This document shows, piece after piece, positions 5,582 through 29,868 of a stretch of DNA of 64,000 nt. Below the pieces are notes generated by a model, which ran no database searches, was not told the DNA's origin, and saw nothing but the letters and a program-made list of their open reading frames with translations. Numbering within the stretch: position 1 is the first letter of the stretch; each line of letters starts with the position of its first letter. The translations under genes were made by a program, and so were the position numbers. The DNA is taken from assembly GCF_000381365.1 (NCBI RefSeq), contig NZ_KB905466.1:990693-1054692 (forward strand), in the 5' to 3' direction. The stretch comes from Bacteroides salyersiae WAL 10018 = DSM 18765 = JCM 12988 (GTDB lineage: Bacteria; Bacteroidota; Bacteroidia; Bacteroidales; Bacteroidaceae).

Positions 5582-5593
5582 AATCTGTTTTTT

Positions 5594-10565: not shown

Positions 10566-10599
10566 GCGATTACCTTTTTTGTATTCATATTCAATCAAA

Positions 10600-11472
10600 C
10601 TAAATTAATAGTTTCCGTATAATTACTTTCTTTTCAGTATTCACTATTTTCAAGACATAGACTCCCGGCACAACAGAAACTTCCTCTACACAATTATTAG
10701 ATCTTAACTCCAGAATTTTCTCTCCAGATATAGAATATAACTCAATATTGCCAATAGAAAACTTAGAAACGATTCTAAATCCTTTATCCAAAAGAGAAAT
10801 ATTCACTTCATCATTTTTCGACAGATTGATCGAAGTGGGTTCTTCATTTATTTTATCTAAATAAACCGCTTTCACTACTGCATTCTGATTTTTCCAAAGC
10901 ATTTTCAGTTGGTGTACCCCCTCTATATCCCCAATCATCGCCTTCGAAAACTTAAATGTCTTTGTAGAAAATGAACGAACCAAAGGAACTTCCGCCATAG
11001 GAGTCAATTCATTGACTATAAATGTCCTAAGACTCGAATTATGACCTCTCCAACGAATATAAATATTATGCTTTCCTAATACACTTTGTGACAGTTTAGC
11101 CGTCATCGTTTTATATTCACCTGTCATTGTTTTCTCCACCGGAACAGAAGTTATTGGCTCAGCCGCATCCTCCAAAAAAATATCAAAAAACGATCTTTCA
11201 GATAATTCCTGAGGATTTGTGTATTCAACAGAAAAAGAATTATATGTATATATTTCATCTCCCAGATTTACACTATTAATCTTAATAGCCGTATTATTAC
11301 CCGTACTGATCACTGACACTGAAGCAGCATCATATGTCCCATCACCCAATATCTGCACCGAACTATTCAAATATTTACCATTTCCATTACCCGCCATAGG
11401 GACAGATAAATTATCTGCCTTACAATAAAAAACAAAAAACAGCGCGAACAATAACCCAAATAATCTATTCAT
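10600..11472 (-). CDS. Small secreted protein with CBM6-like domain and C-terminal sorting-like tail
   Basis: I chose the ATG at 11472 because it yields a signal peptide (MNRLFGLLFALFFVFYC) and overlaps the upstream stop by 8 bp, suggesting translational coupling; a longer frame opens at 11580 but would begin inside the preceding gene. The 290-residue product has a beta-rich domain (residues about 25-160) with SVEYTNPQELSERSFFDIFLED and GKHNIYIRWRGHNSSLRTFIV, reminiscent of CBM6-type modules. The last 70 residues (ELYSISGEKILELRS to VPGVYVLKIVNTEKKVIIRK) resemble a T9SS type A-like tail. A glycan-binding accessory role is inferred; no catalytic motif is seen. Confidence 0.6.
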   Translation of the reverse strand: MNRLFGLLFALFFVFYCKADNLSVPMAGNGNGKYLNSSVQILGDGTYDAASVSVISTGNNTAIKINSVNLGDEIYTYNSFSVEYTNPQELSERSFFDIFLEDAAEPITSVPVEKTMTGEYKTMTAKLSQSVLGKHNIYIRWRGHNSSLRTFIVNELTPMAEVPLVRSFSTKTFKFSKAMIGDIEGVHQLKMLWKNQNAVVKAVYLDKINEEPTSINLSKNDEVNISLLDKGFRIVSKFSIGNIELYSISGEKILELRSNNCVEEVSVVPGVYVLKIVNTEKKVIIRKLLI

Positions 11473-13492: not shown

Positions 13493-14263
13493 TTAACTGT
13501 TTAAATCAGGAATTACTACCTCAAGTATACGAGAGAAATTATATTTCTTTCCCGGATTATTCGTACGAACCCCTATCCTTACCCAATATTTTCCAGCAGG
13601 TAAATTTTTCACATTCTTTTCTGTTACGGTAATTGGAGTACCCGGGGTATAAGTAGTAAACTTATGAACAGCTCTCACTGTATATTTAGATTCAGTGTTA
13701 TTCACCCCTACGTTGGGAGACTTACTGGATATAAAAACCTGTGCCTCACTAAGAGTATACACCCCTTTGTCCACATTGGTTATATCAATTTCTTTTTGTG
13801 TATCCTCTACTGTATATTTGATAACCAAATTATTTTGTTTTGTACCACTTAAAGTTATTTCATCAATATTCACCCGGGCATAAGGAGTAACAGCATAGTT
13901 CAATTTTGTCATTTCTCCTTTTTCCAGAGTCACTATCTCTGGATCAGGAGCATAAAAAGCACCCTCCTTCAAAGTAATACGATATTCTCCGGCAAAGATT
14001 TTTGTATTTGTAAAAGTTCCGTCAGCTTTTCCCCAAAAAAATCTGGCTTGCGTATTGGCATGACCAGCTTCCTCCCAACTCAACTCATAATATTCTATTT
14101 TATAACTATTGGCTGTTTCAGAACAGTACAATTCATTAGTCTTTTTATCAACTACCGTTCCTTCTATTCCCGAATTTGGCTCTTCATAATTATCATACTC
14201 AAAATATCCGCAGGAAGATAACATAAAGACCATCAAGCACGATAATATATATAATCTACTCAT
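13493..14263 (-). CDS. DUF3823 surface lipoprotein (SusE-position)
   Basis: A 256-residue lipoprotein: MSRLYILSCLMVFMLSSCGYFEYDNY, lipobox Cys at 18. It carries the DUF3823 features: GIEGTVVDKKTNELYCSET, IEYYELSW, ARFFWGKADGTFTNTKIFAGEYRITLKEGAF and a second beta-sandwich domain from about residue 130. These proteins directly follow susD in many Bacteroidetes PULs and are expected on the outer surface as glycan-binding partners of SusCD. Here it lies 18 bp downstream of the susD stop, exactly that position. Binding specificity cannot be read from sequence. Confidence 0.85.
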   Translation of the reverse strand: MSRLYILSCLMVFMLSSCGYFEYDNYEEPNSGIEGTVVDKKTNELYCSETANSYKIEYYELSWEEAGHANTQARFFWGKADGTFTNTKIFAGEYRITLKEGAFYAPDPEIVTLEKGEMTKLNYAVTPYARVNIDEITLSGTKQNNLVIKYTVEDTQKEIDITNVDKGVYTLSEAQVFISSKSPNVGVNNTESKYTVRAVHKFTTYTPGTPITVTEKNVKNLPAGKYWVRIGVRTNNPGKKYNFSRILEVVIPDLNS

Positions 14264-14281: not shown

Positions 14282-16075
14282 TTAATTATAATATGGATTT
14301 TGTATCAATTTTTGGTTTTTTGCAATTTCACTATCTGGAATTCTCTCGTAATACATTTTCACATCAAATGTATAACGTTGGTCATTAGCATCAACCACTT
14401 TAAAAACATACGTATTGTCTCTAAGATCGAAGTAAGGAGATAACCCTGTATAACGTTTTGACTCCATCTCTTTATCAGCGATCCTCCAGCGTCTTAAATC
14501 CCAATACGTATGATTTTCAAAAGCCAATTCAATTCTACGTTCATTACGAACTTTATCAATGGTCAAATCAGAACTATTCAAAGTTTTTACACCTGCCCGA
14601 TCACGAATATCATTTATCCATATCAAAGCATCATCCAAGTGTTGTCCCATTTCTACCGCAGCTTCAACACCGTTCAATAGAACCTCAGCATACCTCATGT
14701 CAATCCAATGATGTTCGCAATAATTTTCTTTCAACTCCTCTTTCGGCAAACTCTCATCCAAATATTTACGAACATAGAATCCTGTTCCATTACCGGAATA
14801 TTTAGCAATTCCACTCTTTCCTGTAACATGATAGACTTTTCCATCTATATCCGTATATGTAGATGATTCCCAGTTTTGACCTACTGTATTAATCTCAGTA
14901 CCATCTCTTTTTATTATCCCTCCTTGTATATCACATTTTTCATTTTTAAATACTGCATTCGGATAGATAATAGTTCCCCAAAAACGTGCATCCATATCCT
15001 TAAATAAGTCAGCTGGATCTGCAAAATGTTGTGAAGTTCCTCTTTCTGCAAAATTAGCAGGAGTTCCGTCTTTGCGTTCAAATCTCTCTACGAATTCCAG
15101 AGGAGGACATAAATATGAAGAATATCCTCCACTGGTATACTGAAAAGGTACACAATAAGTGTCATATCCATGCGCATTCACATTCCTTTGAAAATATTTC
15201 ACAAATATATTTTCAGTACTACTTTCTGCCAAAAAAAGATCTGCGTAATTTTGCTCCTTATTGGTGTTTTTTCTATATAAAGAAAACTTACCTTCTATCT
15301 GTTTTACAGCCTGATAGGATTTTTCAAAATAGTCATTTGCCAAAGAAGAATCAATCCCAACAAGACCATCCAAATCAAGTGTGCCATACCGAGCAATAGA
15401 ACCAGCATACAACATTGCTCTTGATTTTAATGCCCAAGCTGCATATTTAGTAGCACGTCCCTGCCCTAAAAGAGATTCTGTTTCAGGCAACAAATGTGCA
15501 GCCCTATCCAAATCTTCTGCAATAAAATCATAACAATACTTTTCTGTATTTCTGGGTACTTTCAAACTCTCAATATCTTCTGTATATTCCTGTGGCTCTT
15601 CCAAAACAGGTACCCCACCATAACGTTTTACCATTGAAAAATAGCAATACGCACGAATAAAGTACGCTTCCCCTAACCAAGCATCTACCAAAGCTTTTGA
15701 AAAATTTCCCTGATACTCAGGCAATGTTTTTATAAAATAGTTTACTCTACGAATACGACCATAATCCCAGGCTCCCCACCAAGTACCGTCGCCTATAGAA
15801 AAAAGTTCATCACCTAAAGTAATCATAGCCTCTCCCGACACGTGAGCCAAGTGCGCCTTTCCGGCGTTATTCACATTAAAGCCATATTGGCTAAAACGAA
15901 AGTCCTCTATCGGCAAATCAGCATACAATGTAGTCATATACGCTTTAATACCTGATTCAGATTTAAATATAGCATCATCTTGTATAATATTAATTGGAGG
16001 TACATCCAAATAATCACAAGAATGGATAGTCACTACAGCGACTAACAATATTATTTTCTTTACTAATCTCATCAT
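14282..16075 (-). CDS. SusD/RagB outer-membrane glycan-binding lipoprotein
   Basis: About 597 residues from the ATG at 16075 (a second ATG is at 16072; the frame also continues to a TTG at 16081). The N-terminus is a lipoprotein signal ending VVTIHSCDYLDVPP. SusD hallmarks are visible: AYFIRAYCYFSMVKRYGGVPVL, the TPR-like middle, and the C-terminal RNERRIELAFENHTYWDLRRWR block. It works as the lid of the SusC transporter, capturing oligosaccharides at the cell surface. It is 6-15 bp after the susC stop and followed by the DUF3823 gene, so the three form the transport core of this PUL. Confidence 0.95.
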   Translation of the reverse strand: MMRLVKKIILLVAVVTIHSCDYLDVPPINIIQDDAIFKSESGIKAYMTTLYADLPIEDFRFSQYGFNVNNAGKAHLAHVSGEAMITLGDELFSIGDGTWWGAWDYGRIRRVNYFIKTLPEYQGNFSKALVDAWLGEAYFIRAYCYFSMVKRYGGVPVLEEPQEYTEDIESLKVPRNTEKYCYDFIAEDLDRAAHLLPETESLLGQGRATKYAAWALKSRAMLYAGSIARYGTLDLDGLVGIDSSLANDYFEKSYQAVKQIEGKFSLYRKNTNKEQNYADLFLAESSTENIFVKYFQRNVNAHGYDTYCVPFQYTSGGYSSYLCPPLEFVERFERKDGTPANFAERGTSQHFADPADLFKDMDARFWGTIIYPNAVFKNEKCDIQGGIIKRDGTEINTVGQNWESSTYTDIDGKVYHVTGKSGIAKYSGNGTGFYVRKYLDESLPKEELKENYCEHHWIDMRYAEVLLNGVEAAVEMGQHLDDALIWINDIRDRAGVKTLNSSDLTIDKVRNERRIELAFENHTYWDLRRWRIADKEMESKRYTGLSPYFDLRDNTYVFKVVDANDQRYTFDVKMYYERIPDSEIAKNQKLIQNPYYN

Positions 16076-16089
16076 AATCAAACTATTAA

Positions 16090-19000
16090 TTAAAAGGACA
16101 AATTTAAACCGAAATTAAAATTTCTCATAATTGGATACAAATATCCATAACTACCAGACGTGCGTTCAGGATCAACAAAATCCAATCCTGTTATTGTAAA
16201 TAGATTATATCCATTTGCAAAAATCCGACATCTGTCAACTTTAAATTTGCGAGTAAACTTAAGAGGAATTGTATAACCAAGTTCTATACTTTTCAGACGC
16301 AAATATGAAGCATCCTGAGTAGTTTGCTGAGAGTCTTTTAAATTAGATTGACAAGCAGCCGGATCTCGTGTTGTAGGCCATTTTCCTGCTATCCAGTTAC
16401 CCTCTTCATCTTGATGATAGCGGTCATAAAAATGAGACAAGCCATTACCTCCAAAACATAAAGGATACTGGAGCTGTTCTAAATATCTGACATTAAATCC
16501 CGCTCCACCTTGAAATAATATATTTAAGTCAAAACCTTTCCAATTAGCAGTTACAGTTGCTCCATAAGTCATTTTAGGATTACTATTTGAAAATTCAAAA
16601 ACATTCGGATATACATCATTATCATCAATTATTCCATCACCATTCCAGTCTTCATATTTCCAATCTCCTGGTAATAATGTTGAACCACCTTTTCCATCTT
16701 GATCCGGTGAATTCCAAATATCTTCCATAGAGGTATATTGCCCATTGGAGCCATATCCCCATCCCATGTCAGAATAACGATTAGAATACTTTCCTCTCCA
16801 TCTATCATAAGAATTCACAGCATCACCTTCTACTAATTTTCTATTCATTTTGCGAGTAAGAGCAAAATTCAAACTAACAGAATATCTAAAATCTCTTATT
16901 TGATTACGATGTCCTAATACAACTTCAAATCCTTTATATAAATCCTGATTCAAATTTTCCTCTGGCATCTCTGCACCAATTGTTCCCGGAACTTCCTGAT
17001 TTCTTTTTCCCAATAGGCCGTCTCTATATCTCCAGAAAAAGTCTATCTGGAAAGAAAACAATCCATTGAATAAATCCAGATCAGTACCAACATTTAACGT
17101 TTTAGAAGTATACCATGTTATACTGGGGTTCGGAAGCCCTCTAAAGCCTAATCCTTTATAAGCTTCTGTCCCAAAAACATAACCTGCACCCGGATAGTCA
17201 TAACCGGATAAAAATTGATAGCTTGACGAACCATCATCGCCTAACACACCATAAGAAGCTCTTATTTTCCAATTTGTTAAAAAAGACAAAGCATCAGTAT
17301 CCTTAATAAAATTCTCTTCAGAGATACGATATCCTGCTGAAACAGAAGGGAAAAATCCCCACCGATGTCCTTTGGCAAACTTAGACGAACCATCATAACG
17401 GAAACTCGCCTCCAATAAATATTTAGAAGCATAATCATAATTCAAACGTCCAACAAGTCCCATATTAGTCGTTTTATATATTTGACCAGCATCTGAACTT
17501 CCTTGTTGCTCGTTATCAGAACCAGAAAATAATTGATCTACAGCATCCATTTCTAAAATTCTTTTAGCCCAAACATTATCTTCCTCTTTCGATGTTTGTT
17601 CATATAAAAATAAAAGTTTCACATTATGTTTTTCAGCGAACAGGTGCTCATAATTTAAAGAAGCTTGCAACAAGTTTTGAGAAGCTTCCCATGATTTTCT
17701 TCTAACAGCAGAAGGTGCCGCAAATGTTTGTGGAATATAATCCTGTGCTCCCTCATCATACGAATATAATGTATAAGCTTTTTGAAACTCTTTCTCTTGA
17801 GACGTTTTGTAGTCATATCCATATAAAAATTTCGCACTCAATCCTTTCAAAAAAGGAGCTTCATAAGTTAAAGAGAATGTAGTATTTAACGTTTTATTTT
17901 TATATCGTTTATAACCACTTTTATCTGCATCTGTAATAACCAATGAATTCAATCCAGAATTACTCATTACATTAGCATAATAATTTTCATTTCCATTCGC
18001 ATACGGACTTTCATTAGGTCTCAAAGCCCATATGGATTTAAAGAGTTCCCAAGTATCTTTATGAGGTTGATTTTTTTCATCTGAAACTCCACTAATCAAC
18101 ATTTCAGCCTTTAAATGATCAGTGATCTTAAAGCCCAAATTTGAACGAATATTAAAACGGTGATAATTTAAATCACCTGACTTCCAAAGTCCATCTTCTC
18201 CATAATACCCGAAAGACAAATAATAGTTAGCCCTTTCCGTATTACCACTAGCTGTCACATTATGATGTGTCTGAGGTACCATTTTTCTTAATACCAGACT
18301 ACTCCAATCCGTAGCTTGAAACTCTCCACTTCTATAACGTTCCAAATCTTCTTTTGAAAAAGTATAATCAATACCACGACCCATATTTTTATCAGCTTCG
18401 CGTACCAATTCTACATACTGTCCGGGATCTAATACCTCAGGTAATCCCGTAGGATTCTGGAATCCAAAACTCCCAGTATAATCAATTTGTGTTTTTCCAC
18501 TTCCTGCCCCTTTACGAGTTGTTACAAGCAATACTCCATTAGATGCCCGCATACCATAAATAGCTGCCGATGCATCTTTCAAAACCGTAACACTTTCTAT
18601 ATCATTGGCCTCTAAACGCTGCAAATCAGAAGCCTCACGAACTACTCCATCAATAACAATCAAAGGACTACCCAATCCACGAATATCCATGCTGGTATCA
18701 TAACTTCCGGGTTCACCAGTATTCTGTTGAATACGAAGACCGGGCAATTTTCCAGACAACATATTTTGGACATTAACTGAAGGAGTAGCAATAATCTCAT
18801 CATTTTTTACTGAACTAATTGCTCCTGTCAATGATACTTTTTTCTGCGTACCATATCCAACAACAACTACTTCATCAACTATTTGGGTCTCCTCTGTCAT
18901 TGTCAAGTTAACAGTTGTTCTACCTTTCACTGCAACATCTTTAGAAGAAAAGCCTATCAAAGAAAACCTCAAAATAGCATCATTAGTATTGGAAACAGTA

Positions 19001-19245
19001 ATACTATATGCACCATCTATATCCGTTATGGTACCCGTTGAAGTACCCACTAACAAAATATTAACTCCTGGTAAAGGTTCACCTAACTGGTCACGAACCA
19101 CTCCCGACACCTGTTGCCGTTGATTACTTTCTGCTAATAATATTGTACTGCTATTTACAGAAAGAAACAGTAACAAAATCAAGCGTAAATAACAAGAAAA
19201 CGACAAATGCTTTCTTAGTATTAAATTTTTCACATCCATGCTCAT
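16090..19245 (-). CDS. SusC/RagA TonB-dependent outer-membrane transporter
   Basis: A 1051-residue protein with signal peptide and, directly after it, the carboxypeptidase-D-like domain (VSGVVRDQLGEPLPGVNILLVGTSTG), the TonB-box region (VDEVVVVGYGTQKKVSLTGAIS), the plug (PLIVIDGVVREASDLQRLEANDIESVTVLKDASAAIYGMRASNGVLLVTT) and a 22-strand barrel ending FGLNLSF. There is no STN domain, in contrast to the SusC at 44641, which fits regulation by something other than a FecR/ECF pair. It imports glycan fragments with SusD. The 125-bp leader upstream holds a perfect 18-bp inverted repeat. Confidence 0.97.
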   Translation of the reverse strand: MSMDVKNLILRKHLSFSCYLRLILLLFLSVNSSTILLAESNQRQQVSGVVRDQLGEPLPGVNILLVGTSTGTITDIDGAYSITVSNTNDAILRFSLIGFSSKDVAVKGRTTVNLTMTEETQIVDEVVVVGYGTQKKVSLTGAISSVKNDEIIATPSVNVQNMLSGKLPGLRIQQNTGEPGSYDTSMDIRGLGSPLIVIDGVVREASDLQRLEANDIESVTVLKDASAAIYGMRASNGVLLVTTRKGAGSGKTQIDYTGSFGFQNPTGLPEVLDPGQYVELVREADKNMGRGIDYTFSKEDLERYRSGEFQATDWSSLVLRKMVPQTHHNVTASGNTERANYYLSFGYYGEDGLWKSGDLNYHRFNIRSNLGFKITDHLKAEMLISGVSDEKNQPHKDTWELFKSIWALRPNESPYANGNENYYANVMSNSGLNSLVITDADKSGYKRYKNKTLNTTFSLTYEAPFLKGLSAKFLYGYDYKTSQEKEFQKAYTLYSYDEGAQDYIPQTFAAPSAVRRKSWEASQNLLQASLNYEHLFAEKHNVKLLFLYEQTSKEEDNVWAKRILEMDAVDQLFSGSDNEQQGSSDAGQIYKTTNMGLVGRLNYDYASKYLLEASFRYDGSSKFAKGHRWGFFPSVSAGYRISEENFIKDTDALSFLTNWKIRASYGVLGDDGSSSYQFLSGYDYPGAGYVFGTEAYKGLGFRGLPNPSITWYTSKTLNVGTDLDLFNGLFSFQIDFFWRYRDGLLGKRNQEVPGTIGAEMPEENLNQDLYKGFEVVLGHRNQIRDFRYSVSLNFALTRKMNRKLVEGDAVNSYDRWRGKYSNRYSDMGWGYGSNGQYTSMEDIWNSPDQDGKGGSTLLPGDWKYEDWNGDGIIDDNDVYPNVFEFSNSNPKMTYGATVTANWKGFDLNILFQGGAGFNVRYLEQLQYPLCFGGNGLSHFYDRYHQDEEGNWIAGKWPTTRDPAACQSNLKDSQQTTQDASYLRLKSIELGYTIPLKFTRKFKVDRCRIFANGYNLFTITGLDFVDPERTSGSYGYLYPIMRNFNFGLNLSF

Positions 19246-19370: not shown

Positions 19371-20684
19371 TTACTTAGCTACCTTAAATGTCGAGGTTGC
19401 ATCGCTTGATACTATATTTACGATACATATACCAGTTGCATTCAAAGAAATTGTCATACTTCCTTGTGTTGCTATTTGCTCATTCAGTAACATTCCAGTT
19501 ACATCATAAATACAAATAGTTTCATTTCCTTTCAGTCCCTCTACTTTGACGCCGTCAGTAGTAGCAGATACAATGTAATTAGTATCATTATCTATATTTT
19601 TAACTCCAGTACTACCAGCTTTCTGCCATTTAAATACAGGATAATCAGAGATAGAAGGATCCATTTTCCATACATTATCAAAATCAAACCCCAATTCTTC
19701 GTAAAATTCTTGTGTAAGATCAGCTTTTGTAACATCGGCTCCATTTCTCTGATCTGCATTATTATCAGTAGTAACCAAATTTCCATTAACTTTTGCAGTC
19801 TCCAATGCATAGTTTCCTGAACTCAAATCAGGAGAACCACCACCACAAATTCGCCCAATTCCTGTTGCATCATCATTACCTGTAACATCGCACATTGCTA
19901 AACATCCGCTTATAGAACTTGAAGCATCTATCATTCCTGCAATTCCTCCCAAATTATTTCTGGCAACAACAGTTCCAGATACATAAGAAGACATAATCGC
20001 AGTCATATTTTCAGCTTTTCCAACTAAAGCAGCAGCATTATCTCCCCGTAAATCAGTTTCACTTAATTTTCCATCACATACAATAGAACCATCCACAAAG
20101 TAACAATCATATATAACAACCTGACTACCTGGACCCACAAATCCTCCAGCTTCTACACCTGTACCTATATTCTTAACCGTACAATTAATAGCACCAACTT
20201 CCCGAATAGTTGTTTTTTCAGTTTGTCCGGAAATCATTCCCATACGTCCTTCCCCTATAAAAGTGATATTCTCAAAAATAACTCTTTCAATGGTTGCTCC
20301 TTCCACAACTCCAAAAAATGTCATATCATGAGCACCTGTCGGTTTTTCTACATAGAAATTCTTAATTGTATGCCCATCACCGTCAAAAGTACCATGAAAG
20401 CGATCTGCAGAACCAGAACCACTACCCCATTCACCAATGGGCCACCATCCTCCCTCATAATCAAAATGCACATTAGAAAAATCCAAGTCTGCAATTAGTT
20501 TATAAGAAGCTCCACGGGCATCACGCATCCTATCAAACTGTTGTGGAGTAGCAATCAAATAGGGATCATCAGGGGTACCTGTTCCACCTGCAAATGGACT
20601 TTCGTCCTGCGCCATTACATTAGTTGTAAACACTACACTACAAAAGCAAAGAGTCATTAATCCTTTGTAAAAATTCTTTTTCAT
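19371..20684 (-). CDS. Secreted GLUG-repeat beta-helix protein with sorting-like tail
   Basis: A 437-residue exported protein (signal peptide to VMAQ). It begins with GTPDDPYLIATPQQFDRMRD and GGWWPIGEWGSGSGSADRFHGTFDGDGHTIKNF, the typical opening of GLUG-motif proteins, followed by beta-helical repeats (IERVIFENITFIGEGRMGMISGQ, GGFVGPGSQVVIYDCYF, GGIAGMIDASSSISGCLA). The last 70 residues (NYIVSATTDGVKVEGLKGNETICIYDVTGMLL to TFKVAK) resemble a T9SS type A-like tail. No catalytic signature is recognised; surface glycan binding or adhesion is possible. It sits between the GH92 pair and susC, with 105 bp and 125 bp of AT-rich spacer on its two sides. Confidence 0.7.
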   Translation of the reverse strand: MKKNFYKGLMTLCFCSVVFTTNVMAQDESPFAGGTGTPDDPYLIATPQQFDRMRDARGASYKLIADLDFSNVHFDYEGGWWPIGEWGSGSGSADRFHGTFDGDGHTIKNFYVEKPTGAHDMTFFGVVEGATIERVIFENITFIGEGRMGMISGQTEKTTIREVGAINCTVKNIGTGVEAGGFVGPGSQVVIYDCYFVDGSIVCDGKLSETDLRGDNAAALVGKAENMTAIMSSYVSGTVVARNNLGGIAGMIDASSSISGCLAMCDVTGNDDATGIGRICGGGSPDLSSGNYALETAKVNGNLVTTDNNADQRNGADVTKADLTQEFYEELGFDFDNVWKMDPSISDYPVFKWQKAGSTGVKNIDNDTNYIVSATTDGVKVEGLKGNETICIYDVTGMLLNEQIATQGSMTISLNATGICIVNIVSSDATSTFKVAK

Positions 20685-20789: not shown

Positions 20790-23045
20790 TTAATTTATGT
20801 CAGTTTCTACAGATGATTGAGTGATCATACCAAATTGTTCATTCGGTCGATTTCCCATTGTAAATACTAATGTACCGCCAGCCATAATATCTGCGTGAGA
20901 GATATAAAGTTTATTGTAAGGTTGTCCGTTCAGTTCTATAGATTGTATATACTTATTCTCCGCGGAATTATTGTTTGCACGTATCTCAAAAACCTTATTT
21001 TCCGGCAGTTTTAACACAACCTTATCAAATATCGGCCTACCGAAAACATACATACCGTCAGACGGATTAACCGGATAGAAACCTAATGCAGAGAAGACAT
21101 ACCAGGAAGACATCTGCCCGCAATCTTCATTGCCCTGCAGCCCATCCGGCAAGTCGCTATACATATGCGATAGGATATAATCCACCTTTTCCGCCGTTTT
21201 CCATTGCTGGCCGACAAAGGAATAAAAATATACCGTGTGATGTCCCGGTTCATTACCGTGAGCATACTGCCCGATCAGACCGGAAATATCCGGAGAAGCC
21301 GCATCACCCAAATCTTCATTTACAAGGAACAGGCTGTCCAACTTTGAAACAAATGCTTCCTTACTTCCGAACAAAGATATCAAGCCTTCGACATCGTGAG
21401 GTACCAACCAAGTATATTGCCAGCCGTTTCCTTCACAGTAAGCATCGTTACGGTGAGTAGAATGCACAGGGTTGAACGGAGTTACCCATGAACCATCTCG
21501 ATTTTTTCCTCTGAAGAAATGTGTATCTTTATCCCAATAGTTCTGATAAGCTAAAGCACGCTTGGAAAAATACTCATAATCTTCCGTCTTACCTAACTTC
21601 CGTGCCACCTGTGCCACTCCCCAATCGGCAATAGCATATTCCAGGCCTTTGGCAACCGATTCATTTTCTTTGTCTGCCGGAATATATTCCAGATCCGTCA
21701 CATACGACAGTCCTTTGTAATCGGACATCATGGATGCTTTCATCGCCTGATAAGCACGTTCATAATTGAACCCTTTGACATCTTTCAATATCGCATCTGC
21801 AATCACCGGAACGGACTGGATACCAATCATCTCATTCGTATCCGAACCATATAGATGCCATACCGGTAAACGTCCCTGTTGCTCGTAAATGGCAAGCATC
21901 GAGTTTATAAAGTCGGGAACACGTTCCGGTTGTACTAATGTGTACAAAGGATGAGCTGCACGATAAGTATCCCATAAAGAAAATACAGTATAATTGGTAA
22001 AGCCCGGATCGCCATATATATTTTTATCGGTTCCACGGTACTCCCCACTACAATCATTAAACATGATCGGCTGCATAAAGGCATGGTACAAGGCCGTATA
22101 GAAGATACGTTTTGCCACCGTATCGGTTGTTTCTACCTGTAACTTCGATAATTCCGCATTCCATTTACCGGTTGTTTCAGCAACGATATTCTCAAAATTC
22201 CAGTCTTTTATTTCCTGCCCGATATTATCCATTGCATTTTCCATGCTCACGGGAGAAATACCGACTTTCACTCCTAATTCCTCTACTACAGGTGCAACGG
22301 CAACATTTCCTTTCACGTCCAGTCCCTGAAGACGATTTCCCGCTACTTGCACCGAATCATGATACAAAGTCAGATGTACAGGTTGGGAGAAAACTGCAGA
22401 AAAATAAATCTGCTGTTTTTTTGACCAGCCTGTGGAATACCGGTATCCTCTGATGACCGTATCATTGATTTGCTCCAGATATGTATCAGTCGGACGATCG
22501 TCTCCATTTGCATCTTTCAAGTTAATCATTACATGTTTTTCCACATCTTTCGGGAAAGTATAGCGATGGAAAGCCACCCGGTCCGAAGCAGTAAGTTCCA
22601 CTTTCGTACGATGAGTTTTCAGTAAAACTTCGTAATATCCCGGCAACGCCCGCTCGTTATCTTTCGAATAATAAGAAGCATAACCGGACAAAGGGTCTTG
22701 TTGCGTTCCCGGTTGCGTACGTGCCTTACCGGTATATGGCATGAACAGAATATCGCCGGTGTCACTGCAACCAGTCCCGTTGAGATGGAGATGTGAAAAA
22801 CCAATCACGATAGAGTCGGAATAATGATATCCTGAACACCAGTCCCATCCTTTATTGATATTATTAGGACCGATCTGTACGGCTCCGAAAGGGGCGGTAA
22901 CTCCCAAGAATGTATGTCCATGTCCTCCGGTTCCGATATAAGGGTCTACATAAGCCACCGGATTTATCACTTCCGGTTTGTCTGCACCGGTGCACCCGAA
23001 AGCACACATGAGACAGCTTAATAATAAAAACTTCTGTAAATTCAT
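20790..23045 (-). CDS. GH92 exo-alpha-mannosidase (second in operon order)
   Basis: A 751-residue lipoprotein (LLSCLMCAFGCTGADKPE; Cys 18). It has the same motif set as the enzyme at 8319: YVDPYIGTGGHGHTFLGVTAPFGAVQ, GWDWCSGYHYSDS, HLNGTGCSDTGD, SLWDTYRAAHPLYT, EGNGWQYTW (about 538) and GNEDCGQMSSWYVFSALGFYPV (about 637). These carry the acid, base and substrate-contact residues of GH92. The HLNGTGC form is shared with the other copy and differs from the GH92 at 23054. Expected role: trimming terminal alpha-mannose. The start is 8 bp after the stop of the upstream GH92. Confidence 0.94.
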   Translation of the reverse strand: MNLQKFLLLSCLMCAFGCTGADKPEVINPVAYVDPYIGTGGHGHTFLGVTAPFGAVQIGPNNINKGWDWCSGYHYSDSIVIGFSHLHLNGTGCSDTGDILFMPYTGKARTQPGTQQDPLSGYASYYSKDNERALPGYYEVLLKTHRTKVELTASDRVAFHRYTFPKDVEKHVMINLKDANGDDRPTDTYLEQINDTVIRGYRYSTGWSKKQQIYFSAVFSQPVHLTLYHDSVQVAGNRLQGLDVKGNVAVAPVVEELGVKVGISPVSMENAMDNIGQEIKDWNFENIVAETTGKWNAELSKLQVETTDTVAKRIFYTALYHAFMQPIMFNDCSGEYRGTDKNIYGDPGFTNYTVFSLWDTYRAAHPLYTLVQPERVPDFINSMLAIYEQQGRLPVWHLYGSDTNEMIGIQSVPVIADAILKDVKGFNYERAYQAMKASMMSDYKGLSYVTDLEYIPADKENESVAKGLEYAIADWGVAQVARKLGKTEDYEYFSKRALAYQNYWDKDTHFFRGKNRDGSWVTPFNPVHSTHRNDAYCEGNGWQYTWLVPHDVEGLISLFGSKEAFVSKLDSLFLVNEDLGDAASPDISGLIGQYAHGNEPGHHTVYFYSFVGQQWKTAEKVDYILSHMYSDLPDGLQGNEDCGQMSSWYVFSALGFYPVNPSDGMYVFGRPIFDKVVLKLPENKVFEIRANNNSAENKYIQSIELNGQPYNKLYISHADIMAGGTLVFTMGNRPNEQFGMITQSSVETDIN

Positions 23046-23053
23046 TTATATTC

Positions 23054-25354
23054 TTATTTGTTTTCGTTAGTCAAAGAATAAGGGAAATCTTCATCATTTA
23101 CTCCCCGCTGTGTATTTGGTGTATGGCTCATATTGAAATCAAGAACAGCACCGTTCATTAATTCCTCATGTTTCAACCAATTGTGGTTATATTCCTTACC
23201 GTTCATTTTCAAGGAACATATATATCTATTGTTATTTGTGTTGTCGGGAGCATTCAAAATAACCTGCTTTCCATTTTCCAGTGTAAGAATTGCTTTTTTA
23301 AAGAGAGGGGCTCCCATTACATACTCTCCTGAACCCGGACATACCGGGTAAAATCCTAAAGCAGAAAATATATACCAGGCAGAAGTCTGACCGTTATCTT
23401 CATCTCCACAATAGCCGTCCGGATAAGGGGTATACAGCTTATCCATTACCTCCCTTAACCAATATTGCGCTTTCCAAGGCTGTCCTGCATAATTATAAAG
23501 ATAGATCATATGCTGAATAGGTTGGTTACCATGCGCATAATTGCCCATATTCATAATCTGCATCTCCTTTATTTCATGAATGCACTGCCCGTAATAACTG
23601 TCGTCGTAAATAGGAGGAACTACAAATACAGAATCCAGCATGGACACAAAGCTCTCCTTTCCTCCCATCAGATCGATAAGCCCCTGCACATCATGAAATA
23701 CACTCCAGGTATAATGCCAACTGTTACCTTCTGTAAAGGCATCTCCCCATTTATACGGACTGAAAGGAGACTGAAATGTACCGTCTTCGTTCTTTCCGCG
23801 CATCAGTTTGCTCTCTTTATCAAAAACGAACCGATAGTTTTTACTTCTTTCCCGATAAAGGTCTATTTCTTCCTGCGGACGATTCAATTGTTGCGCCAAT
23901 TTCATGATACACCAATCGTCATAAGCATATTCCAGGGTACGGGCCACATTTTCATTAATACCTACATTATAAGGTACATACCCCTGCCGATTATAATATT
24001 CATATCCTAATCTTCCGGTTGAAGGAACTTGTGGATGTACATGATTTGCCCCATGCAGTACGGCTTCATACAACAGTTCTATTTCTTCTGTCCGGCATCC
24101 TTTCAGATAAGCATCGGCCACCACAGAAGCTGAATTATTACCCACCATGCAATGACGGTGTCCCGGACTGGCCCATTCGGGCAAAAAACCACTTTCTTTA
24201 TAACTGTTTGCCAATCCCTCCTGAATTTCCTTGTTAACAGAAGGATACATCAGGTTCAAGAAAGGGAATAAAGCACGGAACGTATCCCAAAAACCGGTAT
24301 CCGTATACATATACCCACTCTTCACTTCACCGTTGTAAGGACTGTAATGAACAATATTTCCGGATTTATCTATTTCATAAAACTTACGTGGAAACAACAA
24401 GGAACGATATAAGCAAGAGTAGAAAGTACGAAGTTGTTCATCCGTACCGCCTTCCACTCTTACTTTATCCATTACATCATTCCAAGCATTCCGGGCTGCT
24501 TCTTTTACCTCATTAAAATCTTTGCTACCTATTTCTTCCAAATTCAACCAGGCCTGTTCTTCACTAATAAAAGAAGAACTTACCTTCACACCAATCTTTT
24601 CACCTTTGCTTGTCCTGAATCCTAATACAGCCCCGACATGGTTATCCTTTACCTCCTTTTTACCTTCTATAATTTTGTCTCCACTCCACACTTCTGCCGT
24701 GACGAAAGGTCTATCAAATTTCATCACGAAATAATTTTTAAAGTTATCCGGCACTCCTCCGCTATTCTTTGTTGTATAGCCGGTTATCGTGTTGTTCTCC
24801 TTATCTATCCGAATAAAAGAACCGTTATCAAATGCGTCTACCACGACATACGAATCTTCACTTTCCGGGAAAGTAAATCTAAAATAAGCAGAACGTTCTG
24901 TCGGAGTGATCTCCGTCTTTACATCGTGGTCAGCCAAATATACACTATAATAATAAGGTCTTGCCGTCTCAGCCTTATGAGAGAACCAGCTACCTCTCTC
25001 GTTTTGCAGAAACTTTTTATCCCCGGTCACCGGCATCAAAGAAAACTGCCCGTAATCATTAATCCACGGACTGGGCTGATGTGTCTGCTTAAATCCTTTT
25101 ATCTTATCATCTGTATAACAATAGGTCCATCCATATCCCATATCTCCCGTTTGCGGTGTCCAGAAGTTCATTCCCCAAGGCAACGCAACGGCCGGGTAGG
25201 TATTACCTGTAGATAATGTAAATTTAGATTGTGTTCCGACTAACGGATTTACATAGTCAACCGGAGAAAAAGAAGTAGAGTCAGTAACCACCTCTTTACT
25301 TCTGCATGACACAAGTAAAATAGATAAGAATACAATTAAAGGAACTTTTTTCAT
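23054..25354 (-). CDS. GH92 alpha-mannosidase, divergent subgroup; first gene of the operon
   Basis: The ATG at 25354 gives the lipoprotein signal MKKVPLIVFLSILLVSCRSKE (Cys 17); 15 extra upstream codons in frame were rejected because they would destroy it. The 766-residue protein is GH92 by DYVNPLVGT, GFWDTFRALFPFLN, EGNSWHYTWSVFHD (about 543) and GDEDNGQTSAWYIFSALGFYPV (about 650). Instead of HLNGTGC it has QTHQPSPWINDYGQF, placing it in another GH92 subgroup with a presumably different linkage or aglycone preference. It is the promoter-proximal gene: a TACTTTTG -7 box (25381-25388) and two operator-like repeat pairs lie just upstream. Confidence 0.93.
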   Translation of the reverse strand: MKKVPLIVFLSILLVSCRSKEVVTDSTSFSPVDYVNPLVGTQSKFTLSTGNTYPAVALPWGMNFWTPQTGDMGYGWTYCYTDDKIKGFKQTHQPSPWINDYGQFSLMPVTGDKKFLQNERGSWFSHKAETARPYYYSVYLADHDVKTEITPTERSAYFRFTFPESEDSYVVVDAFDNGSFIRIDKENNTITGYTTKNSGGVPDNFKNYFVMKFDRPFVTAEVWSGDKIIEGKKEVKDNHVGAVLGFRTSKGEKIGVKVSSSFISEEQAWLNLEEIGSKDFNEVKEAARNAWNDVMDKVRVEGGTDEQLRTFYSCLYRSLLFPRKFYEIDKSGNIVHYSPYNGEVKSGYMYTDTGFWDTFRALFPFLNLMYPSVNKEIQEGLANSYKESGFLPEWASPGHRHCMVGNNSASVVADAYLKGCRTEEIELLYEAVLHGANHVHPQVPSTGRLGYEYYNRQGYVPYNVGINENVARTLEYAYDDWCIMKLAQQLNRPQEEIDLYRERSKNYRFVFDKESKLMRGKNEDGTFQSPFSPYKWGDAFTEGNSWHYTWSVFHDVQGLIDLMGGKESFVSMLDSVFVVPPIYDDSYYGQCIHEIKEMQIMNMGNYAHGNQPIQHMIYLYNYAGQPWKAQYWLREVMDKLYTPYPDGYCGDEDNGQTSAWYIFSALGFYPVCPGSGEYVMGAPLFKKAILTLENGKQVILNAPDNTNNNRYICSLKMNGKEYNHNWLKHEELMNGAVLDFNMSHTPNTQRGVNDEDFPYSLTNENK

Positions 25355-25380: not shown

Positions 25381-25388
25381 CAAAAGTA
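25381..25388 (-). promoter_or_regulatory. -7 box of the GH92-led operon promoter
   Basis: The minus strand reads TACTTTTG, a perfect match to the Bacteroides -7 consensus TAnnTTTG, 27 bp upstream of the GH92 start codon. No TTTG is found at the expected -33 position; a direct-repeat pair begins 21 nt upstream of the box instead, the arrangement expected for an activator-dependent promoter. Confidence 0.65.
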
Positions 25389-25409
25389 GGTTGATGCAAT
25401 TAATGAAAC

Positions 25410-25490
25410 CATTAACAGAACATTAATAATCGTGGCTACAGATACTTTCAAAGCACATTTCCGGATTGAAAACATTAACAAGACATTAAT
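25410..25490. promoter_or_regulatory. Two operator-like heptamer direct-repeat pairs
   Basis: On the plus strand CATTAAC (25410-25416) and CATTAAT (25421-25427) form a direct repeat with 11-bp period; the same pair recurs at 25473-25479 and 25484-25490, again with 11-bp period and 63 bp from the first. The heptamer-plus-4-nt layout is that known for binding sites of SARP regulators. The likely reader is the SARP-type regulator at 27304 (inference). Confidence 0.6.
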
Positions 25491-26040: not shown

Positions 26041-27081
26041 TTAATCCGGAAGTCTATTTATACCTACACCTTTGAAAGTCATTTCCACCGGTTTAATAAA
26101 ACCATTTTCATCAAAATACATACGGTCGATACAAACCTCCCTGTGATTCGGAGCTGTATCGCCCAACGGATGACGATGATAAACAATATACCACTCGTCC
26201 TTTCCCGGGATCTGAATCACCGAATGATGTCCCGCTCCTGTACCCACTTTTTCATCCTGCTGTAATATTTTTCCGATACGTTTGAACGGGCCGAATGGCG
26301 AATCTGCAATAGCATAAGCCACACTATAGTCCGAACCGCCCCAACTGCCTTCCGACCACATAAAATAATATTTATTATCCCGTTTCAACATAAAGGGACC
26401 TTCCACATAATTCTCGGGAGTGACAGATTTATAATACGAACCATCATCAAAAGGCACAAGACTTAATAAATCCGGACTCAGCTTCACCATATTACAATGA
26501 TGCCAGCCACCATAATACATATAATAAGTACCATCATCATCTTTAAAAACAAACTGATCGATCGGCTGGGCACCATTCACAATTTTATCAATCAAAGGTC
26601 TGCCTAAAGCATCTTTAAAAGGACCGGCCGGATGATCGGCTACAGCCACCCCGATTCCCCCATACTGTTCGTCATTCTGGATATCATTACCGCCGAAAAA
26701 CAGATAATATTTACCATTCGCCTGAACAACAGAAGGCGCCCATAAAGCAAACTCCAGCCATTTTATATTCTCAACAGACAATACTTTGGGATGTTTAGTC
26801 CAGTGTACCATATCCTTGGATGAAAAAGCATCCATATATGTCTGGATATTATAGACCTGATGGATGGCCCGCGTTTCTTTTTGCCATCCTGTAAAATCTG
26901 TACTATCAGCTCCGGGAGGAAGATCGGACAAGGTGGGATATATCCAATACTCATTATCAAAAACGACCCCTTCCGGATCGGCATACCACCCCTCCACAAT
27001 AGGATTACCGCTAAACTCTTTTTTATCACCACATGCTACCAAGAATAGCATCAACCCCAATACTGTAACAACATTTTTCAT
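26041..27081 (-). CDS. GH43 family glycoside hydrolase lipoprotein
   Basis: The ATG at 27081 gives MKNVVTVLGLMLFLVACGDKKE, a lipoprotein signal with Cys 16; 17 extra in-frame codons upstream were rejected. The 346-residue protein is a single five-bladed propeller with the three GH43 carboxylates in order: base Asp in WYADPEGVV (about 30), the modulator Asp in PIDQFVFKDDDG, and the acid Glu in YVEGPFML. GH43 includes arabinofuranosidases, xylosidases and galactosidases; the subfamily cannot be set here. It is transcribed alone, next to and divergent from the membrane regulator, with its own -7 box and repeat pair, and followed by a strong hairpin. Confidence 0.9.
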   Translation of the reverse strand: MKNVVTVLGLMLFLVACGDKKEFSGNPIVEGWYADPEGVVFDNEYWIYPTLSDLPPGADSTDFTGWQKETRAIHQVYNIQTYMDAFSSKDMVHWTKHPKVLSVENIKWLEFALWAPSVVQANGKYYLFFGGNDIQNDEQYGGIGVAVADHPAGPFKDALGRPLIDKIVNGAQPIDQFVFKDDDGTYYMYYGGWHHCNMVKLSPDLLSLVPFDDGSYYKSVTPENYVEGPFMLKRDNKYYFMWSEGSWGGSDYSVAYAIADSPFGPFKRIGKILQQDEKVGTGAGHHSVIQIPGKDEWYIVYHRHPLGDTAPNHREVCIDRMYFDENGFIKPVEMTFKGVGINRLPD

Positions 27082-27106: not shown

Positions 27107-27114
27107 CAAAAATA
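27107..27114 (-). promoter_or_regulatory. -7 box of the GH43 promoter
   Basis: The minus strand reads TATTTTTG, matching TAnnTTTG, 26 bp upstream of the GH43 start. A heptamer pair begins exactly 21 nt upstream, the same spacing as at the GH92 operon promoter. No -33 TTTG is visible. Confidence 0.6.
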
Positions 27115-27123
27115 ATCATCAAC

Positions 27124-27153
27124 CGTTAACAAAGGTATTAATAATTCATTAAT
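27124..27153. promoter_or_regulatory. Operator-like heptamer repeats upstream of GH43
   Basis: TATTAAT (27136-27142) and CATTAAT (27147-27153) form a direct repeat with 11-bp period; a related CGTTAAC lies 12 bp before (27124-27130). The pair matches the repeats at 25410 in sequence, orientation and distance to the -7 box. Confidence 0.6.
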
Positions 27154-27188: not shown

Positions 27189-27206
27189 CATTAACATTTT
27201 ATTAAT
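27189..27206. promoter_or_regulatory. Operator-like heptamer pair upstream of the regulator gene
   Basis: CATTAAC (27189-27195) and TATTAAT (27200-27206), 11-bp period, lie about 68 bp upstream of the regulator's own -7 box. Probable autoregulatory site, or a second site acting on the divergent GH43 promoter. Confidence 0.5.
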
Positions 27207-27250: not shown

Positions 27251-27281
27251 TTTGCAAATCTCATAAAGCATATTACCTTTG
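27251..27281 (+). promoter_or_regulatory. Promoter of the membrane regulator gene
   Basis: TTTG at 27251-27254 and TACCTTTG at 27274-27281 are separated by 19 nt, a full match to the Bacteroides primary-sigma promoter (-33 TTTG, -7 TAnnTTTG). The start codon at 27304 follows 22 nt later. Unlike the GH43 and GH92 promoters this one has a good -33 box, consistent with constitutive regulator expression. Confidence 0.7.
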
Positions 27282-27303: not shown

Positions 27304-29868
27304 ATGCAAAAAACGATTATTTTTCTGCTCTTAATATTAAAATCGATACTACTTGAATCACAAAATATTTCATCCGGATTATATTTTGCCGCCCATAGTG
27401 CCATTAAAGAAGAGAGGACTTCTTTAACACTGTCTCCCGATTTTGATGCCTCAAAAGGCTTTACACTGGATTTCGACATTAAGTTCAGATCAGAAGAACA
27501 TAATTACGGATATGTCTTCAGAATCATAATTGATGACGAAAGAAGTTTCGATTTAATAGCCAATATCACCCCGGGAAAGAAAACGTTGAATCTGATAGAA
27601 GGTAACAATGTCTATCTGGCTCTCGACGAAGAGCTGCTCAAGCAATATACATGGAACAAATGGGTGCATATCCGATGTTCCATTTATCCGGACAGTCTCC
27701 GGCTTATTTTCGATAACGAAGCACTGCAGGACCAGTATGAACCCATAAATATCAAAAACGTGAAATTCTATTTCGGATATTCCGATCACGAAAAATTTCA
27801 CTCTTCGGACGTTCCTCCGATGTCTATACGTAATATAAAAATTACAAATGACAAAAATACAACAATTGCATACTGGCCACTGAAAGAACATCAGCCATAC
27901 TCCTGTTCGGACAGCCTGCATCACATTCCGGCCAAAGTAACCAATCCCACATGGGAGATAAACAAACATACCAAATGGGTAAAAGAAAAAACATTGGAGT
28001 TGCCGATATATACACAAATCTGTCATGCTCCTTCGAAAGGCGCCATCTACTTTGCCAATAGTTCATCTGTTCTCGCCTATTCGACTACCGACAACACACT
28101 GAATACGATTTATCCTGTTCACGGAGTTCCATATACGGAAATAAACAACCAACTTATTTACCATCCGTATTACAATGAGTTATGGTCATATGATTTCGAT
28201 ACCCCGCAATGGATATCCATTTTCAATTTTGAGAACAAAACATGGACAAACGATGACCGTGTAATAAAGAATCCGGAGTATTCGCAACACAATGCTTTTA
28301 TATCCCCCTATGATTCCTGCCTGTATATCTTTGGCGGATACGGCAACTATCGGTATAAGAACCAGATACGCAAAAAGAACCGTATACAGGATAATTGGAA
28401 AACAGTGTCGTATAGTGAAGAAATACCTCCGCGTTATCTGAGCGGATCAGGCTATAAAAACAAAGATACGTTGCTGATATTCGGTGGATGCGGCAACCCA
28501 CAAGGGAAACAGGAGTTAGGGGTCGTCAATTACTACGATCTCTATGCAATAGACATCAATACATTCAAAACCAATAAATTATGGTCTATTCCCGGCGATG
28601 CAAAAAATTTCGTTATCGGTAATAACATTGTTGTAGATGAGAAAAACAATAAGCTGTATGCCTTATGTTTTCCGAACGACTGCTCGAACAGCTACATCCT
28701 ATTAAGATCTTTCGACCTGGATAGCGGAAAGAACAGCACGAACTATGCAGATACCATTCCTTTCTCCTTTAACGATGTAAATTCATTCTGCACACTTTAT
28801 TACGATTCATTACAGTCACAACTATATGCAGTGACCAATTATAATCACAACAATCAATCAAACATTGACATTTATTCATTGGCTTACCCGCCTTTAAAAA
28901 TAGAAGATACGCTGCAAGCAGATACAGAACGTAAAGCATATTCTGCATTAACAAAATTCTTTATAGGGCTGGGAATCTGCATGATTGCAGGTATGGGTTG
29001 TATCTACTTCTGTTACCGGAAAAGAAGAAAAAAAGGAAGTTTTTCTCCCGATTCTCCAACCACTACAGCCACAGACGGTCTCCACGAAGAAACTTCGGAA
29101 GAAGAAAGTTACAAGCCCCAGCCAACAGCTCACAAAAAATCATCTATTCTTTTTCTGGACGGATTTCAAGTATGGGACAAAGATGGAACAGATATCACCA
29201 AATCATTCACTCCCATCTTGAAACAGTTGCTGATTCTCATCATATTATACAGCGTGAATAATAAGAAAGGTATTTCGAACGTCACTCTGCGGGAACTGCT
29301 TTGGTTTGATAAAATGGATGAAAGTGCCCAAAACAACCGACGGGTGAACATTCGGAAACTAAAACTCTTACTGGAAAAACTGGATGGTGCCGAACTTGTG
29401 AAAGAAAGTACCTATTGGTCTGTCAAGTTTACTCAAACTTACTGCGACTATATAGAAGTATGTAACTTTATAGACAGAGTAAAAAAAAATGAACCGATCA
29501 CAGCAGCCAACATCCATGATCTGCCTTTAAACTTGCTATCAGGTCAATTATTACCATACGTTCAAACAGACTGGCTGGATTCTTTCAAGTCCAATTATGC
29601 CAATTCCGTATTGGACGCGGCAATCAGCCTATCCAAACAAGACTATATAAAGGAAAACAATGAATTACTAATTCAGATAGCCAACAGCATGTTTGCGCAT
29701 GATAAAACAGACGAATATGCGTTAATTCTCAAATGCCAGGCACTGTATAAAAATGGCAGAACCAGCTTGGCCAAAACCACATTCGACACATTCTGCAATG
29801 AATATAAAGCAATGCTGAATACGGATTATTCAAAAACATTCAATGAAGTAATCAATTGTCAACTATAA
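27304..29868 (+). CDS. Membrane one-component regulator: LamG/kelch exterior, SARP-type (wHTH + BTAD) cytoplasmic output
   Basis: The ATG at 27304 gives 854 residues with a signal peptide (MQKTIIFLLLILKSILLESQ); the open frame continues 41 codons upstream without a plausible start. Residues about 25-190 look like a LamG/concanavalin-type sandwich (FTLDFDIKFRS, WNKWVHIRCSIYPDSLRLIFDNE). Residues about 240-535 carry kelch-like blades (LYIFGGYGNYRYKNQIRKK, LLIFGGCGNPQGKQELG). One helix (about 552-572, FFIGLGICMIAGMGCIYFCY) is followed by a basic stop-transfer stretch. From about 610 a winged-helix domain (SFTPILKQLLILIILYSVN, RRVNIRKLKLLLEKL) leads into a BTAD/TPR-like domain (GQLLPYVQTDWLDSF, YALILKCQALYKNGRTSLA). 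This is SARP output architecture on a transmembrane sensor. It is divergent from the PUL and probably controls it; that role is inferred. Confidence 0.75.
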   Translation: MQKTIIFLLLILKSILLESQNISSGLYFAAHSAIKEERTSLTLSPDFDASKGFTLDFDIKFRSEEHNYGYVFRIIIDDERSFDLIANITPGKKTLNLIEGNNVYLALDEELLKQYTWNKWVHIRCSIYPDSLRLIFDNEALQDQYEPINIKNVKFYFGYSDHEKFHSSDVPPMSIRNIKITNDKNTTIAYWPLKEHQPYSCSDSLHHIPAKVTNPTWEINKHTKWVKEKTLELPIYTQICHAPSKGAIYFANSSSVLAYSTTDNTLNTIYPVHGVPYTEINNQLIYHPYYNELWSYDFDTPQWISIFNFENKTWTNDDRVIKNPEYSQHNAFISPYDSCLYIFGGYGNYRYKNQIRKKNRIQDNWKTVSYSEEIPPRYLSGSGYKNKDTLLIFGGCGNPQGKQELGVVNYYDLYAIDINTFKTNKLWSIPGDAKNFVIGNNIVVDEKNNKLYALCFPNDCSNSYILLRSFDLDSGKNSTNYADTIPFSFNDVNSFCTLYYDSLQSQLYAVTNYNHNNQSNIDIYSLAYPPLKIEDTLQADTERKAYSALTKFFIGLGICMIAGMGCIYFCYRKRRKKGSFSPDSPTTTATDGLHEETSEEESYKPQPTAHKKSSILFLDGFQVWDKDGTDITKSFTPILKQLLILIILYSVNNKKGISNVTLRELLWFDKMDESAQNNRRVNIRKLKLLLEKLDGAELVKESTYWSVKFTQTYCDYIEVCNFIDRVKKNEPITAANIHDLPLNLLSGQLLPYVQTDWLDSFKSNYANSVLDAAISLSKQDYIKENNELLIQIANSMFAHDKTDEYALILKCQALYKNGRTSLAKTTFDTFCNEYKAMLNTDYSKTFNEVINCQL

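Follow-up and report, generated by a model that had tools for sequence, protein, structure and literature searches.

A kelch-bearing membrane protein of Bacteroides salyersiae proposed as a SARP-type activator of the adjoining glycan utilization genes

Described SARPs (Streptomyces antibiotic regulatory proteins) are soluble proteins, and regulators of the ToxR/CadC type consist of an N-terminal cytoplasmic winged helix and a C-terminal periplasmic domain. Here we analyzed a stretch of 64,000 nucleotides from Bacteroides salyersiae WAL 10018 (contig NZ_KB905466.1, positions 990,693 to 1,054,692; the window, whose numbering is used for all coordinates), in which the plus-strand gene 27304–29868 (open reading frame and translation; ATG at 27304, stop at 29868) encodes a protein of 854 amino acids that appears to combine a SARP-type output module with a membrane helix and a kelch-bearing exterior, beside a polysaccharide utilization locus (PUL). 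Since the geometry of TTAA repeat arrays in this locus would match that of SARP sites if the repeat is read as a heptamer, we propose that the protein is a one-component, membrane-tethered SARP-type transcription activator of the adjoining GH43 and GH92/SusC/SusD genes, a reading drawn from sequence to which we assign a probability of roughly 0.75. According to the available text of PMC10936776, the SARP module is N-terminal in described members, their sites consist of repeats spaced by 11 or 22 bp, the 3′ one lying 8 bp away from the −10 element, and AfsR acts as a side-by-side dimer which overlaps the −35 element and offers sigma region 4 another docking point. PUL regulators as classified in the available text of PMC3878776 comprise SusR-type proteins, hybrid two-component systems (HTCS), pairs of extracytoplasmic function (ECF) sigma and anti-sigma factors, and members of the AraC, GntR, LacI, ROK, and NrtR families. 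Neither SARP nor BTAD occurs as a term in the main text of PMC3878776 or of PMC12596196, nor in the available main text of the transmembrane-regulator survey PMC10269533.

As in the SARPs AfsR of Streptomyces and EmbR of Mycobacterium, the predicted module is a winged helix followed by a BTAD domain. Judging from the structural model described below, an OmpR-type winged helix would stand directly before the BTAD/tetratricopeptide repeat (TPR) domain, the arrangement that characterizes SARPs. The predicted repeats, spaced by roughly one turn of the helix, would overlap the upstream promoter element and keep a fixed gap to the downstream one, resembling SARP sites in the available description (PMC10936776); one step is 12 bp, and the gap to the −7 box would agree with the 8-bp SARP rule on reading the repeat as the heptamer TTAANNN, a value depending on where the repeat is bounded. 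Whereas SARPs typically, though not by strict definition, are soluble with an N-terminal module, in the window protein, which comes from the Bacteroidales, the module is C-terminal and is preceded by a predicted periplasmic sensor and a membrane helix, and the predicted sites have TTAA as core and TAnnTTTG as −7 box. Like ToxR and CadC it unites a winged helix of the DNA-binding kind and a periplasmic sensor, joined by one membrane helix, in a single polypeptide, but the order is reversed and a BTAD domain is added, which places it outside that family. By its sequence it would still belong to the transmembrane transcription regulators, a DNA-binding-type domain and a membrane helix sharing one chain. 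Bacteroides HTCS are PUL-controlling proteins that likewise combine sensing in the periplasm, anchoring in the membrane, and output on DNA within a single chain (PMC3878776, available text), but the window protein has no histidine kinase, receiver, or AraC match, and hence is no HTCS. As in ECF sigma/anti-sigma and SusR systems, the adjoining PUL would be controlled, but no sigma or anti-sigma match was detected and the output module comes from another family. These negatives refer to Pfam and NCBIfam matches up to E 0.1, and bear out the original prediction, which had seen no kinase, receiver, or sigma-binding domain; NCBIfam gave no match for the window protein and nothing useful for 12 family members. 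The same prediction knew of no characterized example, and none was among the literature matches listed, a coverage that leaves out most subscription journals and all bioRxiv preprints; a search for the whole words SARP, SusD, and regulator together found no paper, most subscription journals again lying outside its coverage. The output module and the idea of a transmembrane regulator are already known, and what appears to be new is that they are combined, in reversed order, together with the role in PUL control and the TTAA code.

The protein starts with a signal-peptide-like N-terminus (residues 1–19, 27304–27360; a hydrophobic stretch after a lysine, read by eye), followed by a conserved beta-rich region, possibly a LamG-like sandwich (residues 22–222, 27367–27969; family alignment), a kelch beta-propeller region (residues 225–535, 27976–28908), a transmembrane helix with basic residues on its C-terminal side (residues 552–570, 28957–29013; hydropathy and charge), and the cytoplasmic SARP-type module, winged helix then BTAD/TPR (residues 608–854, 29125–29865; Pfam matches in relatives and fold search), all on the plus strand. 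The signal peptide, kelch-like exterior, and single membrane helix claimed from the bare letters were thereby recovered. For the propeller, PF24681 was matched at E 5.8e-18 (65.4 bits, the cut-off being 50; strongest over residues 306–457), and a family profile hit kelch proteins of the PDB with a best E of 1.3e-18. A membrane segment between ectodomain and C-terminal module was present in 84 of 84 family sequences (two places counted twice), 77 of them caught by an automatic rule and the remaining 7, in which the domain envelope had started too early, read by eye.

Evidence for the output module came from relatives and from fold comparison. BTAD was matched by 8 of 14 family members (best E 4.6e-6) and Trans_reg_C by 2 of 14 (best 0.0046), at E up to 1. 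An AlphaFold prediction of the module from four related sequences reached a mean predicted local distance difference test (pLDDT) score of 65, the TPR part scoring 68–95 per ten-residue block. With this model, Foldseek ranked AfsR chains in places 1–3 (E 3.1e-4, 2.0e-3, and 6.4e-3; 219–257 columns for AfsR and EmbR), and VIA-align put EmbR and AfsR on top (Z 8.5–9.4). The profile and fold searches thus spoke for, not against, the C-terminal winged helix plus BTAD that had been predicted.

Using a profile of the C-terminal module, we detected the family in 29 of 393 genomes sampled from the order and, within the genus, in 63 of 158, among which G205, G224, G237, and G267 gave only partial matches, the window genome being counted in both sets; a full-length regulator search of 201 genomes drawn from the taxonomic family found 7. 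Genomes hold up to six copies, and most listed open frames span 840–900 amino acids. The window protein is the sole full-length copy found in its 5.3-Mb genome (one extra partial match, E 0.001), with 88% identity to the regulator of B. nordii and 82% to that of another relative, and its conservation across many genomes marks it as more than a chance reading frame. Among 68 nonredundant relatives, seven carry the same output module behind a different exterior, with a LamG region beside the membrane helix in place of kelch; on the regulator tree (which leaves out the truncated or short L111 and L122, 2 of 68) this variant exterior needs two changes.

In respect to the neighborhood, SusC or SusD lies within 7 kb of 42 of 65 nonredundant regulators, as against 12 of 40 regions drawn at random from genomes that bear a regulator (Fisher p 6.7e-4), so that the predicted association with PULs was retained. 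A GH92 gene, by the GH92 profile, was found within 7 kb at 25 of 65 regulator loci versus one of 40 controls (p 1.3e-5); both counts leave out L003, L121, and L122 on account of a short flank or contig (3 of 68). GxGYxYP neighbors were enriched as well (10/65 vs 0/40, p 0.012), GH43-like proteins (8/65 vs 2/40) and rhamnosidases (1/65 vs 0/40) were not. The 84 immediate neighbor proteins include 10 GH92 catalytic domains and 6 GH99 domains, neither family being among those listed (25 of 140) for 84 random control proteins. Across nine genomes with 20 regulators, a GH92 gene lies within 12 kb of 12 of them and within 25 kb of 17, at random expectations of 0.92 and 1.75, respectively; for SusD places the corresponding counts, among the matches listed, are 14 and 17 of 101. 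GH92 proximity requires 16 changes on the regulator tree and is thus not one inherited block. Within 10 kb it applies to 28 of 66 tree regulators and to none of the seven with variant exterior.

The usual spacing between TTTG and the −7 box in Bacteroides promoters is 19–21 bp. In the window, two predicted operator-promoters on the minus strand, both derived from sequence statistics, share another layout: the one at 27107–27152, TTAA-11-TTAA-12-TTAA-15-TATTTTTG, reads into the GH43 gene (26041–27081, minus strand, ATG at 27081; Pfam), and the one at 25381–25426, with identical spacing and TACTTTTG, reads into the GH92/SusC/SusD run. Neither has TTTG 19–21 bp ahead of its −7 box, wherefore both look activator-dependent. 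The regulator's own promoter (27251–27281, plus strand) looks ordinary, with TTTG, 19 bp, and TACCTTTG, by comparison with the consensus elements of PMC7366714, in whose available text the housekeeping sigma factor of Bacteroides has TAnnTTTG as its −7 consensus. The divergent intergenic region holds a further TTAA pair with 11-bp spacing (27191–27205, without assigned strand). This region between GH43 gene and regulator is kept in B. nordii and in the 82%-identical relative, TTAA elements included; in the intergenic region of two more distant relatives (L005 and L011) the TTAA arrays were not aligned. As a separate observation by eye, the region upstream of the second regulator of genome G051 (L011:3990–4330) contains a repeat unlike the TTAA arrays, in which similar ATCTTTAGCCTAAGGAT-type blocks recur about every 22 bp.

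TTAA pairs at a lag of 11 occur in 22 of 59 regulator upstream regions and 9 of 242 controls (1.59 vs 0.14 pairs per kb), a count that omits regions shorter than 140 bp or with other letters as well as the window itself, whose longest reading frame starts at GTG 27181. This count was not blind, because the motif had been spotted by eye beforehand; the genome searches and the −7-box offset came later, on overlapping loci. Earlier scans with identical 7- or 8-mers and with block-shuffle z-scores had been weak (for the latter, p 0.036 at lag 11 and 0.81 at lag 22), and three near-copies of any 6-mer at lag 11 were present in 10 of the 59 target regions and in 12 of the 242 controls. Triples of TTAA at 11–12 bp were found in 15 of 58 regions 3′ of a regulator, 11 of 61 regions 5′, and 21 of 248 other non-convergent regions of the regulator loci (in total 47 of 367), versus none of 43 convergent regions of these loci and one of 300 control regions. 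The distance from the last TTAA to TAnnTTTG in 306 target-locus arrays, both strands considered, was 15 bp in 13 cases and 27 bp in nine, with no other offset above three; among 46 control arrays none had either value and two had an offset of 16. Read by eye, the offset-27 arrays seem to hold a third, imperfect repeat in between.

On genome scale, 21 of 62 TTAA site clusters in seven genomes fell within 12 kb of one of 21 regulators, compared with a random mean of 1.19 and with none of 20,000 random draws reaching 21; the window genome entered this placement test by contig C1 only (4 of its 7 sites). At the same distance, a site was present for 12 of 21 regulators and 2 of 57 SusD places away from regulators. 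The full 11/12/15 layout plus −7 box, taken from the window promoters and the offset count, yielded two sites in the window genome with one mismatch allowed, both exact, in the regulator's locus, and on the operon strand. In 158 genomes it gave 156 matches versus 12 for a backward control, and the subsequent counts use 150 of the 156. Two recurrent site families, A and B, were set aside, a choice made once they had been seen. Of the 29 exact listed matches that remain, 20 have a regulator within 20 kb and all 29 come from the 63 regulator-bearing genomes; for one-mismatch matches these numbers are 36 and 63 of 72. With both families included, 43 of 47 exact listed sites are in regulator-bearing genomes and 20 near a regulator. 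Presence in such a genome is weak evidence, since it also holds for 13 of 17 exact family A sites. The exact arrangement occurs ten times in 68 regulator loci (1.35 Mb, window included) and not at all in 40 control loci (0.80 Mb). At nine of the ten sites a correctly oriented gene starts at the site end (called starts −26 to +188 bp), namely SusC (3), GH92 (2), GH43 (2), or other (2), and behind the tenth no gene is called before the locus ends. Because four of the seven variant-exterior loci contain a TTAA triple, the operator seems tied to the output module and not to the kelch sensor.

Apart from the regulators, family A comprises 34 listed sites, conserved and promoter-like, that begin with TTAACAT and have the 11/12/15 spacing and a TAnnTTTG box (e.g., G204:C1:2499030 and G229:C1:5791415), none of them within 20 kb of a regulator and 14 in genomes lacking one. 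Family B comprises 15 listed sites beginning with TTAAAC or TTCAAC, with TTAACAG as third repeat (e.g., G203:C1:386938 and G241:C68:28807), one of them within 20 kb of a regulator.

In the mechanism we propose, the N-terminal region and the kelch propeller would lie in the periplasm, where the ectodomain would bind a product of the locus substrate, probably a mannose-containing oligosaccharide, or a signal-carrying partner. The signal would pass via the single membrane helix to the cytoplasmic winged helix plus BTAD module, which would bind as a multimer to the three TTAA-centered repeats at 11- and 12-bp spacing, sites predicted by sequence statistics. Situated just upstream of the −7 box TAnnTTTG, these repeats would stand in for the −33 element, and the bound module would recruit RNA polymerase as SARPs do, turning on the GH43 gene and the GH92/SusC/SusD run. 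The regulator itself would be expressed from its ordinary-looking promoter and might act either while tethered or following proteolytic release.

A number of observations weigh against this reading, which is drawn throughout from genes and sequence statistics. Concerning the module, the window protein alone matches BTAD below the Pfam cut-off (E 0.017, 15.9 bits vs 22.1), the winged-helix part of the model has a pLDDT of only about 44–67 per ten-residue block, EmbR followed on Foldseek rank 4 at E 0.14, the superposition with AfsR is loose (template modeling score 0.30–0.40, root-mean-square deviation 8.6–9.3), and unrelated TPR proteins came nearly as high in VIA-align (Z 8.1). What a sequence search of the C-terminal profile against the PDB returned was a designed TPR protein (E 0.053) and no SARP; the SARP match derives from the fold search and the Pfam matches of relatives. 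Concerning the operator, lags 12, 21–23, 30, 32, and 34 are raised too, less than lag 11, and TTAA density is higher in target regions overall (14.5 vs 10.0 per kb). The offset peak includes both window promoters that prompted the test, with few (46) control arrays. The bases after TTAA shared between repeats of one promoter show no excess (P 0.30), and as TTAA is palindromic, little else stands behind calling the repeats direct. Genome-wide, the loose triple stands out by its placement alone, being no more common than its backward control in the window genome (7 vs 12; 63 vs 49 in six other genomes), 9 of 21 regulators have no exact triple inside 12 kb, and families A and B show 11/12/15-like spacing with no link to a regulator. 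Finally, 23 of 65 regulators have neither SusC nor SusD inside 7 kb.

Some of these points would suit a protein that is a mere bystander, the TTAA repeats being the operator of a different regulator or a general AT-rich feature of PUL promoters. In favor of this view are the shortness and AT-richness of TTAA, the higher AT content of target regions compared with controls (0.699 vs 0.657), and the 34 and 15 listed sites of families A and B, which are found apart from the regulator and even in genomes lacking it. Such a background, however, would hardly produce the sharp lag-11 excess, the near absence of triples from controls (1/300), or the contrast between regulators (12/21) and SusD places away from them (2/57) within 12 kb; moreover, 20 of 29 exact listed sites outside families A and B cluster within 20 kb of a regulator, and no other regulator was recognized by Pfam among the locus genes at 1234–27132, two of whose products (326 and 437 amino acids) have no family. 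We consider this explanation improbable. Even less credit is due to the idea that the protein is a repressor freeing the same promoters once its signal is sensed: a repressor, too, might occupy the −33 region that the array overlaps, but both PUL promoters look activator-dependent for want of TTTG at 19–21 bp, the layout resembles that of SARP activators, and the regulator's own promoter is ordinary-looking.

The nature of the signal leaves more room. It is conceivable, though in our estimate the less probable case, that the regulator acts as proposed but that its ectodomain senses a periplasmic or outer-membrane partner or the state of the envelope, and no free glycan. Kelch propellers are often protein-binding, and the PDB matches shown for the kelch profile are largely eukaryotic kelch proteins and designed propellers. 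The recurrent GH92 neighborhood, for which the tree requires 16 changes, suggests a substrate-linked signal instead, and 11 of 68 ectodomains match the kelch model of N-acetylneuraminate epimerase (best E 3.7e-5).

Coming back to the membrane-tethered activator, we are inclined to see in it one member of a Bacteroidales class of PUL control, in which membrane-tethered SARPs with exchangeable periplasmic sensors would activate at the membrane through a TTAA repeat code 15 bp from the −7 box, making regulons readable from sequence; as part of this joint claim, kelch would serve GH92 alpha-mannoside loci, and LamG beside a different N-terminal region would serve others. PUL regulators determine the glycan choice of gut Bacteroidales, and the kelch-SARP family would add a further class, whose predicted operator makes regulator-bearing loci testable from sequence. 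It raises the question of how a SARP, known from soluble actinobacterial activators, assembles on DNA while held at the membrane. The GH92 link suggests that the sensed glycans contain mannose, as N-glycans or fungal mannan do, and the promoters, some 50 bp long, could act as sugar-responsive reporters.

Among the 68 nonredundant ectodomains, 59 match kelch and seven Laminin_G_3 at E up to 0.01, the latter likely being the seven variant-exterior regulators. The variant exterior is seen at L003:1461–4085, L004:8270–10882, and their relatives L098, L100, L107, L108, L109, and L119; two ectodomains match TIM-barrel_MTC6 (best E 4.2e-5). The LamG-like part that the original prediction had placed at residues 25–190 of the window protein was not confirmed: Pfam gave no LamG match for this protein up to E 0.1. 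At E up to 1, 26 N-terminal regions of the family yielded three Laminin_G_3 matches (best 0.042), one Laminin_G_2 match (0.0012), and one Laminin_G_1 match (0.0099), none of the five being the window protein's. The best PDB match of the N-terminal-region profile was a neurexin at E 0.87, and comparison with the clear LamG of the variant relatives gave a probability of 4.3. Judged by these sequence comparisons, the LamG identity is weakly supported. An AlphaFold model of residues 20–576 from two alignment rows displayed strands at a pLDDT of 37.5 and was used for no fold claim.

All locus genes lie on the minus strand and were assigned by Pfam unless stated otherwise. The run under the second predicted operator opens with two GH92 genes (23054–25354, ATG at 25354, and 20790–23045), followed by a 437-amino-acid protein (19371–20684; no Pfam match up to E 0.01), which lies between the GH92 pair and SusC and is possibly a surface glycan-binding protein. 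Next come the SusC-type transporter (16090–19245; Pfam and NCBIfam), SusD (14282–16081), a DUF3823 protein (13493–14263), and a GxGYxYP putative glycoside hydrolase (11465–13480). Further along lie a 326-amino-acid protein (10600–11580; no Pfam match above cut-off), a third GH92 gene (8319–10598), two alpha-L-rhamnosidase genes (2948–5581 and 5594–8287, together 2948–8287), and an esterase/SMP-30-like protein (1234–2925). The 326-amino-acid protein ends in a weak match to the C-terminal type IX secretion sorting signal TIGR04183 (E 0.00039, 20.4 bits vs a cut-off of 23).

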